From positions 1 to 22,979 of the IMG/VR virus record IMGVR_UViG_3300046660_000471: a stretch of DNA of 22,979 nucleotides; one strand, 5' to 3'. This document shows positions 250-8,197 of this stretch, in pieces; within the stretch, counting starts at the first letter, position 1; each line of letters starts with the position of its first letter. The translations under genes and the position numbers were made by a program. This DNA comes from a virus. Below the pieces are notes generated by a model. It made no database searches. It had not been told where the DNA came from and saw only the letters and a program-made list of their open reading frames with translations.

Positions 250-1596
250 CTAGACGGCCCTCGAAGCGGGGGCTATGGCCCGTGCTCGCTCGTACAACTC
301 GGCGGCCTGGTGGTGCTTCATATATGGCCGGATGAGAGAGCGCATGTTGTTGATGCGCTGGTCTGCCCGGCCCGACTGGACTAGCGGATAGTCGTCGAGT
401 GCTTCGTTCCATGTCTTCACGGCCTCTTCGAGGTGCCCGACCTGAAGTTGCCGTTCGGCGAGCATGGCGCGCATGCGCACGTTGCCTCGGCGGTAGACCG
501 AGAAGCGAAGCTTGTTGCTCTCCTTCAGGGCGTCAATCGACCCTTCAACGTCGCCCAGCTCGAAGCGCACTTGACTGATGTGGTAGTTGAGCGCGGCCGG
601 ATCGTATGAGCCGAAGGCTTTCGATCGGCTCTCGGCCCGTTCCATTGCGGCTTCCGCTTCTCGGATGCGGCGAAGTGCTTCCGTGCGGTTGCCCTGTTGA
701 GCCGCGGAGTGTGCCTGTTGCCCCGTGATGAAGGCGAGCATGCGTGGCCCGGCCTTCGGCGACGCTGCGGCGGCGGCGTCCGCCAGGCGCACGGCATCGG
801 CCCCGTGGCCCAGGTCGACGGCTTGCACGCTCATGCCTCGAAGGGTGGTGCAGTAGGTGAGGTGGTCCTCGGATGCTCCGGCAAGTTCGAGGGCCTTCAG
901 GTAGTAGCTCTGTGCCAGGCCGTGAAGCCCTTCGTCTACGGCCATGTACCCGGTGAGGTAGCTCAGATCGGAAGCGGCCGAGAGCATCGCTTTCCGTACG
1001 TCGTCCGGGCCGTCCGCACGGAGGTACGCCGCAACGGTGTTGACGAGAAAGGTTGCGGCCATGGGGCGCGCGTGGCGGCCCCCGAATTGGTCGTCTAGCT
1101 CAGACACCTTCTCGGTCATCTGTATGACCATGTCAACGTCAGAGAAGCCGATACGACCAGCTCGGCCACTGTGGAGTGCGTCCACCCGGCCTAGAACGTC
1201 CGGCCATCCGGGGATCGTGAGGGCAACCGAGTACAGACCGGCCCCGAGCACGCTTCGGCGTGAGGGGTCCATGTCTTGCCTTCCGAGGTGCACCAACCCT
1301 TCAACCGTACTCGGGTGGTCCTCGGTCTTCGCCTTCGTCTTAGGGGCAAGAAGCCCGGCCTCGGCGTGCGTGACCTGTCGCCCCAGGCGGCGGGAGAGTG
1401 CTTCGAGGATCAGGGGCCGAACCTTCTCGCGCGGCATGGTGCCGCTTAGCCAGTGGCTGACGTTCGTCTTGTCCGTACGGACGGACAACCCCGCTTCGTC
1501 GCCTGCCCGGTTGATGGCCGTGGCTAGCTGCCCGAGTGTCCAGTCAGCTTCGCGGAGTAGCCTGCCCAACCCCTCGTTGGGCTCTCGCTCTGCCAT
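250..1596 (-). CDS. XRE-type helix-turn-helix regulator with TPR-like C-terminal region
   Basis: 448 residues from ATG at 1596, chosen because GGGGAG lies about 7 bases upstream. The open frame continues to 1809, but the added 71 residues look like translated promoter DNA. Residues about 8-60 form a helix-turn-helix of the XRE/Cro type (LGQLATAINRAG, then TNVSHWLSGTMP). The rest is alpha-helical with repeated Ala/Leu/Tyr spacing typical of tetratricopeptide repeats, the architecture of many Streptomyces XRE regulators that sense a peptide or protein partner. It stands alone, convergent with the rightward block and divergent from two small genes. No copy of the phage operator was found near it, whereas its upstream region carries a different repeat (GTTGAAA). 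It could be a cargo (lysogenic-conversion) regulator, or less likely the immunity repressor. Confidence 0.8.
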   Translation of the reverse strand: MAEREPNEGLGRLLREADWTLGQLATAINRAGDEAGLSVRTDKTNVSHWLSGTMPREKVRPLILEALSRRLGRQVTHAEAGLLAPKTKAKTEDHPSTVEGLVHLGRQDMDPSRRSVLGAGLYSVALTIPGWPDVLGRVDALHSGRAGRIGFSDVDMVIQMTEKVSELDDQFGGRHARPMAATFLVNTVAAYLRADGPDDVRKAMLSAASDLSYLTGYMAVDEGLHGLAQSYYLKALELAGASEDHLTYCTTLRGMSVQAVDLGHGADAVRLADAAAAASPKAGPRMLAFITGQQAHSAAQQGNRTEALRRIREAEAAMERAESRSKAFGSYDPAALNYHISQVRFELGDVEGSIDALKESNKLRFSVYRRGNVRMRAMLAERQLQVGHLEEAVKTWNEALDDYPLVQSGRADQRINNMRSLIRPYMKHHQAAELYERARAIAPASRAV

Positions 1597-1610
1597 AGGT
1601 CGACTCCCCG

Positions 1611-1782
1611 CACTTTCAACGCTTTCAACCCTGCCCGAGGCTTCAACGGTACCGCCGTGCGTGGTCGCGCGGTTGCGTAGTGGGACAACGTCAGCGAGAG
1701 GGCAGCGGATGAAGTCACATGCGCAGGCAGGGGAAGCGTTGAAACGTCCTGAAGGGCAGGCCGGCAGAACCGTTGAAACGGT
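1611..1782. promoter_or_regulatory. Cluster of GTTGAAA repeats in the divergent promoter region
   Basis: The 300 bp between the regulator (start 1596) and the rightward small gene (start 1897) holds five copies of a GTTGAA-type motif: TTTCAAC at 1614-1620 and 1623-1629, TTCAAC at 1642-1647, CGTTGAAACG at 1737-1746 and the dyad ACCGTTGAAACGGT at 1769-1782. Copies on both sides of the gap, one palindromic, suggest operator sites for the adjacent XRE regulator. A copy of the leader element GTCAGCGAGAG lies on the plus strand at 1690-1700. I could not fix -35 and -10 boxes with confidence. Confidence 0.5.
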
Positions 1783-1896
1783 CTGGATCTCGGCGGGCGG
1801 GTTCTTCACGGTCGCTCCGGCCTGGTGGCCACGGAGCTTCGCGCCCCCGACAAGGACCGTGGTCGAGCGCGTCGAGCGCGGGCTAGGGCGGCTTCT

Positions 1897-3753: not shown

Positions 3754-3776
3754 CGTGGTTCCTTCCTTGCCGTGTC

Positions 3777-3823
3777 TCTCGCTGACAAGGGGAACGTTAC
3801 TAGTATTTGGAATCCTTCGTCAA
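3777..3823 (-). promoter_or_regulatory. Promoter with the operator in the -35/-10 spacer
   Basis: Minus strand: -35 TTGACG (3823-3818), 18-bp spacer filled by GATTCCAAATACTAG, -10 TAACGT (3799-3794), then leader TTGTCAGCGAGAGA ending near 3777. Here the operator is inverted relative to the promoters at 2781 and 3103 and lies between the boxes, where a bound protein would directly block RNA polymerase. Confidence 0.75.
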
Positions 3824-3905
3824 GCGGCTAGGTGGTTGGGTTCTTGCTGTTGTCTTTCGTCTTTCTCCATGCCTCGGGTGCCTAGAGCGGGTGGAGTGGA
3901 TTGGA

Positions 3906-4371
3906 CCCCCCCTTGAAGCAAGCAATAGGCCCCCCACGTATGGAGGTTACTCACTTCAAGAGGGGAGCCTGTCAAACGTACCTCGGTACGCCTGTCACGG
4001 TATGTCGCTTACAGGACCGGTTAAGGGAATTAGCCTCACCGCAGGGCCGGGAAGTGTGATCGAAGCTAGGGGCCGCATGCCCGGCCCCTCTGCGGGGCCA
4101 CCGGTCCGGGCCTGCCTTCACCCGGTCTGTTCGTCACTCGGTATGCCGTTCCCTTGCGGGCTTCTCTACCTTCCGGGGGCTGAATCCGGAGTCGGTCTTT
4201 TGGTGAAGCGGAGCCGTTCTCTTACCGCTAACTCTCTGGACTCCCCCAGTCGTCACCTGGGGGCCGCAGGAGCGGTTTCCTGGGCCGCTCTCCCTTGGCA
4301 TGTCGTCTCCCTGGGGTGCCATCCCCCGGGCCGTCCTACGCGGCCACGGCTCGAAGTGATCAAGCCGTGCG
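3906..4371 (-). ncRNA. Candidate large structured noncoding RNA, about 465 nt
   Basis: No frame here encodes a credible protein, yet the DNA is packed with hairpins. A promoter (-35 4407-4402, -10 4383-4378) predicts a start near 4371, one or two bases before a 10-bp stem (arms 4360-4369 and 4345-4354). Further stems: 4329-4333/4341-4345, 4270-4275/4285-4290, 4243-4249/4257-4263 (7 bp), 4172-4176/4186-4190, 4151-4160 (GCAA loop in minus-strand RNA), 4069-4075/4082-4088 competing with 4083-4088/4094-4099, 3977-3990, and a closing stem 3908-3918/3954-3965. That stem encloses 3931-3946, which has a UACG tetraloop. Two stems (4345-4369 and 3931-3946) need a U-G pair that exists only in minus-strand RNA, supporting leftward transcription. 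Family unknown. The 3' end is inferred from the last stem; no T-tract follows. Confidence 0.6.
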
Positions 4372-4377
4372 GCACGG

Positions 4378-4463
4378 ACGTTACTAGTATTGAAACTAGA
4401 CAAGCAACCTAGACCTTGGGTGATGCGCGCCACACGTTTACACGTTTTCCCAATCCTAGGTTC
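4378..4463 (-). promoter_or_regulatory. Promoter of the structured RNA with several operator copies
   Basis: Minus strand: -35 TTGCTT (4407-4402), 18-bp spacer containing GTTTCAATACTAG, -10 TAACGT (4383-4378). Additional operator-like CTAG elements lie at 4392-4399, 4406-4412 and 4449-4463 (CCCAATCCTAGGTTC). Unlike the protein-gene promoters, the GTCAGCGAGA leader is missing, so the RNA would start directly in its first stem. Confidence 0.6.
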
Positions 4464-4476
4464 CGGACATGAAGAA

Positions 4477-4501
4477 GGCCCCCGCAAAGTGCGCGAGGGC
4501 C
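4477..4501 (-). terminator. Hairpin terminator
   Basis: Minus-strand GGCCCTCGC pairs with GCGGGGGCC (9 bp, one U-G pair that exists only in leftward RNA), followed by TTCTTC. It stands between the hairpin-rich segment 4502-4654 and the promoter of the structured RNA. Confidence 0.7.
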
Positions 4502-4654
4502 GGTGGCCGGCAAATCCCCCAGGAAGGCCCCTGACCAGCTCTCCAGGACTCCCAGGGGGCCAGGTGGGGGAACGGACCAGGAACGCCGTTCAGGCCGCTA
4601 GAGGGCCGCTCAGACGCTCCGCGGTGCCCCGTCGACCAGTCCCCGGACACGCAA
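4502..4654 (-). other. Gene-free, hairpin-rich spacer between two tandem terminators
   Basis: I see no credible gene. The only long minus frame (start 4650) runs through a terminator and has no Shine-Dalgarno. The segment can fold (GGCCCC/GGGGCC stem around 4526-4560; AACGG/CCGTT around 4572-4590) and carries one copy of the octamer GGCCGGCA. It could be a second small RNA made by read-through from the gene at 4698, or a degraded cassette. Confidence 0.4.
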
Positions 4655-4680
4655 ACGGCCCCCGCCGAAGCGGGGGCCGT
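4655..4680 (-). terminator. Hairpin terminator with TTCG loop
   Basis: Minus strand ACGGCCCCCGC, TTCG, GCGGGGGCCGT, then TTTGCG. It ends the membrane-protein gene at 4698-4964. Confidence 0.85.
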
Positions 4681-4697
4681 GGTCGAGCTGGTCGCGG

Positions 4698-8119: not shown

Positions 8120-8197
8120 TCTCGCTGACAGGAAGAACGTTACTAGCATTGGGAACCTGTGTCAACGTTTAAACGGTCTACGCCAAAACCTAGTTTC
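8120..8197 (-). promoter_or_regulatory. Double-operator promoter of the SprT-like gene
   Basis: Minus strand: upstream operator GAAACTAGGTTTTGG (8197-8183), a GTTTAAAC palindrome, -35 TTGACA (8165-8160), 17-bp spacer with GTTCCCAATGCTAG (second operator, 8156-8142), -10 TAACGT (8142-8137), leader TGTCAGCGAGA, then a GGCCGG/CCGGCC hairpin before the Shine-Dalgarno. Confidence 0.8.

Follow-up and report, generated by a model that had tools for sequence, protein, structure and literature searches.

A probable large structured non-coding RNA with three pseudoknots in Streptomyces phages and plasmids

OLE is a large, ornate bacterial non-coding RNA with protein partners, and ColE1 RNA II, a plasmid RNA of ~550 nucleotides whose folding matters, primes or controls plasmid replication. 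ROOL, an RNA of hundreds of nucleotides with multiple pseudoknots, occurs in phages and prophages and forms a homo-octameric RNA nanocage (PMC12286853); it is also found on an L. salivarius megaplasmid and has no known protein partner (PMC12286853, PMC5643018). Deletion of an L. salivarius lncRNA, since equated with ROOL (PMC12286853), lowered the copy number of the megaplasmid (PMC5643018). GOLLD is a further large, phage-borne, structured RNA whose function is unknown (PMC12286853).

The locus described here lies in a 22,979-bp virus record of a Streptomyces-type phage, IMGVR_UViG_3300046660_000471 (this whole stretch is referred to as the window), within a gap at 3754-4697. It appears to encode a large structured non-coding RNA of ~505 nucleotides on the minus strand (3865-4371), with the 5' end inferred from its promoter and the 3' end from conservation. 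Like ROOL, this RNA is hundreds of nucleotides long, has multiple pseudoknots, is carried by both phages and plasmids and has no known protein partner; unlike ROOL, it lacks an Rfam match, occurs in other hosts and does not lie beside tRNA genes. It shares with GOLLD a large size, a phage setting, structure and an unknown function, but GOLLD is longer (many >800 nucleotides) and often near tRNA islands, a typical though not strictly defining feature, and its model finds no match here. OLE is likewise large, bacterial and ornate, but has protein partners, whereas we found no protein common to the carriers of the present RNA and no match to an Rfam model. ColE1 RNA II is plasmid-borne, of similar size and dependent on folding, yet no similarity between the two was found.

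A search of Rfam 15 at gathering and permissive thresholds returned no family, only weak chance matches such as miRNA hairpins; an earlier reading of the sequence had recognized no specific match. The ROOL, GOLLD and OLE models gave no match, and for ROOL none was obtained in the window region even at E-values up to 5. There is no tRNA in the window and none in the plasmids scanned; in related phages, tRNAs lie ~20 kb from the RNA. The resemblance to GOLLD and ROOL suggested in that reading therefore survives as analogy and fails as membership, given the absence of an Rfam match and of an adjacent tRNA island: the two are nearest to the present RNA in behaviour, by analogy only, and it belongs to neither. 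We found no previous description of the RNA in the open-licence literature (preprint servers were not covered), so that novelty here means absence from Rfam 15 and from a literature search of incomplete coverage.

The original prediction placed a promoter immediately ahead of a leftward structured RNA starting near 4371. Both hexamers are present exactly where proposed on the minus strand: TTGCTT at -35 (4407-4402) and TAACGT at -10 (4383-4378), the latter within a copy of the repeated element ATACTAGTAACGT. The first stem (4370-4345) follows directly, and the prediction of a large non-coding RNA is supported by this promoter, by 20 homologues with many compensatory changes and by the lack of a conserved reading frame. 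The proposed 3' end at 3906, giving ~465 nucleotides, falls short, as conservation continues ~40 nucleotides further, to ~3865, with the 3' block CACCCGCTCTAGGCACCCGAGGCATGG retained in phages. The exact ends are nevertheless less well defined than the body of the RNA, and both the 5' and 3' ends differ in the plasmid form.

Besides the window, 20 full-length homologues were identified: nine phage-type loci, most of which have the neighbour genes seen in the window, eight plasmids of Streptomyces and three draft contigs from that genus. The closest relative, IMGVR_UViG_3300047447_000267 (L002), shares the flanking genes of the window; its RNA is ~80% identical, and in it long islands of 100% identity are interspersed with many single-base, frame-breaking indels. 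The other phage-type loci are seven contigs (L018, L022, L023, L025, L036, L037 and L101) and a draft contig of S. antimicrobicus (L044). The plasmids are NZ_CP089537, NZ_CP108979, NZ_CP108823, CP107817, NZ_CP063809, NZ_CP108570, NZ_CP023993 and NZ_CP109058, and the three draft contigs come from S. virginiae (L047), S. turgidiscabies (L062) and a further Streptomyces genome (L096). Strains with a plasmid of this kind include S. malaysiensis DSM 4137 and S. chartreusis NBC_00865. The family was opened with DNA patterns derived from the invariant islands and with weak blastn matches to Streptomyces plasmids, and homologues were then confirmed by profile and covariance searches. Sequences outside a 10-sequence profile matched it at E-values from 2.5e-152 to 3.5e-78, and later profile matches included L096 (1.1e-93) and L101 (3.2e-121). 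R1, a 128-position covariance model built on the central 3' domain, recovered four plasmids outside its training set at E <= 2e-16, together with L101 (7e-20) and L096 (7e-15). Other pattern matches (L030-L035, most of L038-L064, L097-L100 and L102) lacked a profile match and were rejected as chance. Prevalence looks low: R1 detected the RNA in 3 of 61 sampled Streptomyces genomes, including the seed genome and that of L047, and in 98 genomes of the class it found the seed only. No convincing homologue was found among deposited phages (INPHARED) by blastn with three queries at the thresholds used.

The fold begins with P1, a 5' hairpin in its phage form (GCACGGCTT...GAGCCGTG, 4345-4370; this and all following elements are on the minus strand). 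In most phages, as in the window, the P1 loop contains the palindrome GATC, which could form a symmetric kissing loop, although this is untested. P2 (4309-4330, loop AUGGCA) has double changes at seven of its eight pairs; in the register given by MAFFT, 70% of its cells are paired. GGCA in its loop (4320-4317) pairs with UGCC (4300-4297) to form the first pseudoknot, PK1 (4297-4320; 96.1% paired), which becomes GGUG/CACC in several plasmids. P3 (4270-4290; 90.8% paired, double changes at three of four pairs) is followed by P4 (4263-4243) with its outer stem (4236-4269, loop GUGACGA), where four of seven inner pairs are double-changed. An H-type pseudoknot, P5/P6 (4193-4229), interleaves GCGG (4228-4225)/CCGC (4211-4208) with CGGCU (4216-4212)/AGACCG (4198-4193); P5 is 97.9% paired with three double-changed pairs, and P6 is 97.7% paired and mostly invariant, with two G-U pairs. 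The P7 hairpin (4172-4190) is 96.8% paired.

P9a joins GUGACGAA (4137-4130) to UUCGAUCAC (4064-4056), with 90.7% pairing and double changes at seven of eight pairs, and encloses P9, P10 and P11 (4056-4137). P9 pairs ACCGG (4126-4122) with CCGGU (4104-4100) in 95.8% of cells (4100-4126), P10 (4083-4099) joins 4099-4094 to 4088-4083 around a GCAGA loop, and P11 (4068-4082) is 89.5% paired with double changes at all three pairs. Mutually exclusive stems at 4069-4099 had been taken as a hint of a switch, a suggestion that finds no support because the alternatives resolve to P10 and P11: all six P10 pairs are double-changed and 99.1% of its cells are paired across 19 sequences, and relatives such as L022 (GUUCCC-GCAGA-GGGAAC) are unable to form the competing stem. 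The third pseudoknot, PK2 (4042-4114), pairs CAGGCC (4114-4109) with GGC-C-CUG (4048-4042). Although it lay outside model building, it is 100% paired, with three pairs double-changed in eight to nine sequences each, and CAGGCC/GGC(C)CUG appears elsewhere as UGGACC/GGU(C)CCA or CGGACC/GGU(C)CCG.

Toward the 3' end lie P12 (4018-4041; helices 6 and 7 of the covariation count) and the hairpins P12b (CCUGU/ACAGG) and P12c (CGUAC/GUACG), which flank the invariant GGCGUACCG (3977-4015) and were identified by eye and not counted. P13 (3903-3969) is a long hairpin of 25-30 bp in all 19 sequences despite their divergence, and the conserved 3' block CACCCGCUCUAGGCACCCGAGGCAUGGAG (3865-3893) is, in plasmids, part of a closed hairpin, CCACCCGC...GCGGGUGG. 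The plasmid form (L026-L028, L047, L062 and L067-L070) has a further conserved run of hairpins 3' of the RNA, GGGCGCUUCGCGCCCGUCCUU and AAGGA..UCCUU; phages have an A-rich tail there. P1, P8, P12b and P12c are less well defined than the other helices.

Compensatory change in homologues had been named as the test of this structure. Across 19 sequences, double changes occur at 46 of the 77 pairs tested; with the partners slid, the count is 5-9 per domain. In the central 3' domain, 95.5% of cells in 35 pairs are paired and 25 of these pairs are double-changed, for a covariation score of 0.576 (0.08-0.12 with partners slid by 1-3 columns). The 5' domain, counted in a plain MAFFT alignment, has 42 pairs, 88.5% paired and 21 double-changed, scoring 0.323 (slid, 0.04-0.094). 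Since R1 alignments are fitted to the model, counts from them lean in its favour; this bias does not extend to PK2, to the 5' count from MAFFT or to the plasmids on which R1 had not been trained. The 5' pairs were chosen by reading the alignment, making the slid control the fairer yardstick. Taken together, covariation is decisive support for a conserved secondary structure, including the three pseudoknots, and a shape kept by matched base changes over evolution very probably means that the RNA does an important job for mobile elements.

The carriers otherwise share almost nothing. When ORFs of at least 90 amino acids were compared between the nine phage-type loci and the eight plasmids, six of them complete and two partial, nothing matched across the two groups except one L002 regulator, which matched two plasmids, and no partner protein common to all carriers was found among such ORFs; small proteins and very distant homologues would be missed. 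At this level of comparison, the RNA seems to be the only feature generally common to phage and plasmid carriers. With no common protein other than that regulator in one phage, the RNA appears to travel alone, which argues against both a cis-acting leader and a common protein partner. In the plasmids it sits in gaps without annotation, although the gene table used is incomplete, and the RNA is usually preceded by a small gene that is RHH-like in several of them. Several plasmids also have a larger protein upstream (L065 18381-19535 and homologues) whose match to the EACC1-associated caspase family is weak (E 7.5e-10) and falls short of the curated cut-off.

Computational analysis establishes that the structure is conserved, which strand encodes it, that no ORF is conserved and that the RNA is spread among Streptomyces phages and plasmids. 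With a complex fold supported by covariation, a promoter of its own and no conserved ORF, the RNA meets the criteria for a large structured autonomous non-coding RNA, in the absence of transcript data. The explanation we favour, at a probability of roughly two in three, is a free-standing RNA of a new class outside Rfam that acts in trans as a particle for mobile elements; function, stability and multimer state are drawn by analogy only. The RNA would be transcribed from its own phage promoter and would fold into a compact, probably stable molecule. The resulting particle, either structural or ribonucleoprotein and conceivably multimeric in the manner of ROOL, GOLLD or OLE, may help the element to establish, keep or copy itself in its Streptomyces host. 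Because the carriers have no common partner protein, its partners might be only host factors or further copies of the same RNA. More tentatively, and with the odds against it, the particle could consist of RNA alone, perhaps as a multimer or cage, making it a portable phage and plasmid module that works in Streptomyces without any element-encoded protein.

A replication or copy-number RNA, priming or controlling replication of the element and so marking an origin, is the alternative that survives best, although we consider it unlikely. The plasmid RNA fills a coding gap of 1.2-1.5 kb and in at least two plasmids lies within ~2.5 kb of par-like genes, but in two others the distance to the par genes is 8-12 kb. 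Also in favour, the L065 proteins scanned include no obvious Rep family, and the copy-number effect in L. salivarius (PMC5643018) points the same way. However, many of the proteins are hypothetical, so a Rep may go unrecognized, and the RNA is present on phages too. Improbable as well is a countermeasure to host defence, in which the RNA would be a decoy or inhibitor tying up an antiviral or anti-plasmid factor. Such a role would suit the carriers (phages and plasmids, besides Streptomyces contigs in which elements of these kinds may reside), requires no shared partner protein and fits the use in phages of the same promoter type as the surrounding genes, yet for a decoy, an RNA of ~505 nucleotides and three pseudoknots is elaborate, and no known RNA of this kind is resembled in Rfam. 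The size, interleaved pseudoknots and invariant unpaired stretches might also suggest a ribozyme that cuts or splices itself or other RNAs. This is very doubtful, as Rfam models for group I and II introns, RNase P RNA and self-cleaving families gave no match (nor did Rfam or ARAGORN for tmRNA), and no recognized gene is interrupted by the RNA.

The promoter is of a type, a TTGac-like -35 with AATACTAGTAACGT, that occurs two to five times per phage record; the window has minus-strand copies at 8144, 4385 and 3801, and related phages have copies too. A shared leader, (C/T)TGTCAGCGAGA, stands after the copies that precede protein genes; its fuller form in the window and related phages is TTC(T/C)(T/C)TGTCAGCGAGA. 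At the copy preceding the RNA, the leader is absent and the first stem takes its place in nine of nine phage records listed, and in most of these a further promoter copy lies 3' of the RNA, before the next gene. This replacement and the further copy argue for a separate, untranslated transcript, transcription itself being inferred. A cis-acting leader or riboswitch is thus hardly tenable: the next gene (3753-3559) is on the strand of the RNA, but has its own promoter element (3795-3810) between itself and the RNA, and the genes that follow differ between phages and plasmids, with no common downstream gene. Upstream of the RNA, an 88-amino-acid gene is related to genes of Streptomyces phages, for example Lannister and Yasdnil. 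Between it and the RNA promoter, the region 4440-4697 contains two GC-rich, terminator-like hairpins (4501-4477 and ~4652-4680) with a 23-nucleotide repeat, CCGGACA..GGCCCCCGC. Elsewhere in the window, a 519-amino-acid protein (250-1809, minus strand) matches PHROG 10886, a transcriptional regulator, and has weak TPR-like Pfam matches.

Against dinucleotide-shuffled controls, the folding of 3880-4375 stands out for the minus strand (z -2.47, none of 100 shuffles matching it) but not for the plus strand (z -0.32). A structured DNA site in place of an RNA, such as a single-strand or transfer origin, is barely credible: covariation alone cannot separate RNA from folded single-stranded DNA, and several plasmid carriers encode MobF relaxases, but 18 of 19 sequences form a more stable P13 when read as minus-strand RNA, the phage promoter is aimed straight into the RNA, and G-U versus A-C cells in the other helices (19 versus 8, p 0.05) lean weakly toward RNA. 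A reading frame conserved in relatives, which would have refuted the original prediction, does not exist in the eight phages besides the window: no frame on either strand is stop-free across the RNA. Indel lengths leave a remainder of 1 or 2 modulo 3 in 340 of 367 pairwise cases among nine phages (cases not independent). A protein-coding reading was accordingly rejected, with gap lengths mostly not multiples of three and the frames closed in the other eight phages. The 201-amino-acid plus-strand ORF at 3807-4412 has no stop-free counterpart in those phages and is attributed to chance.

Few large ornate RNAs are known from phages and plasmids, and what they do remains an open question. The RNA adds a class unrelated to any Rfam family, with a fold backed by covariation, in Streptomyces, where genetics is good, and the plasmid carriers make deletion and copy-number tests simple. 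That phages and plasmids have this same RNA, and almost nothing else, in common suggests a service to mobile DNA in general.
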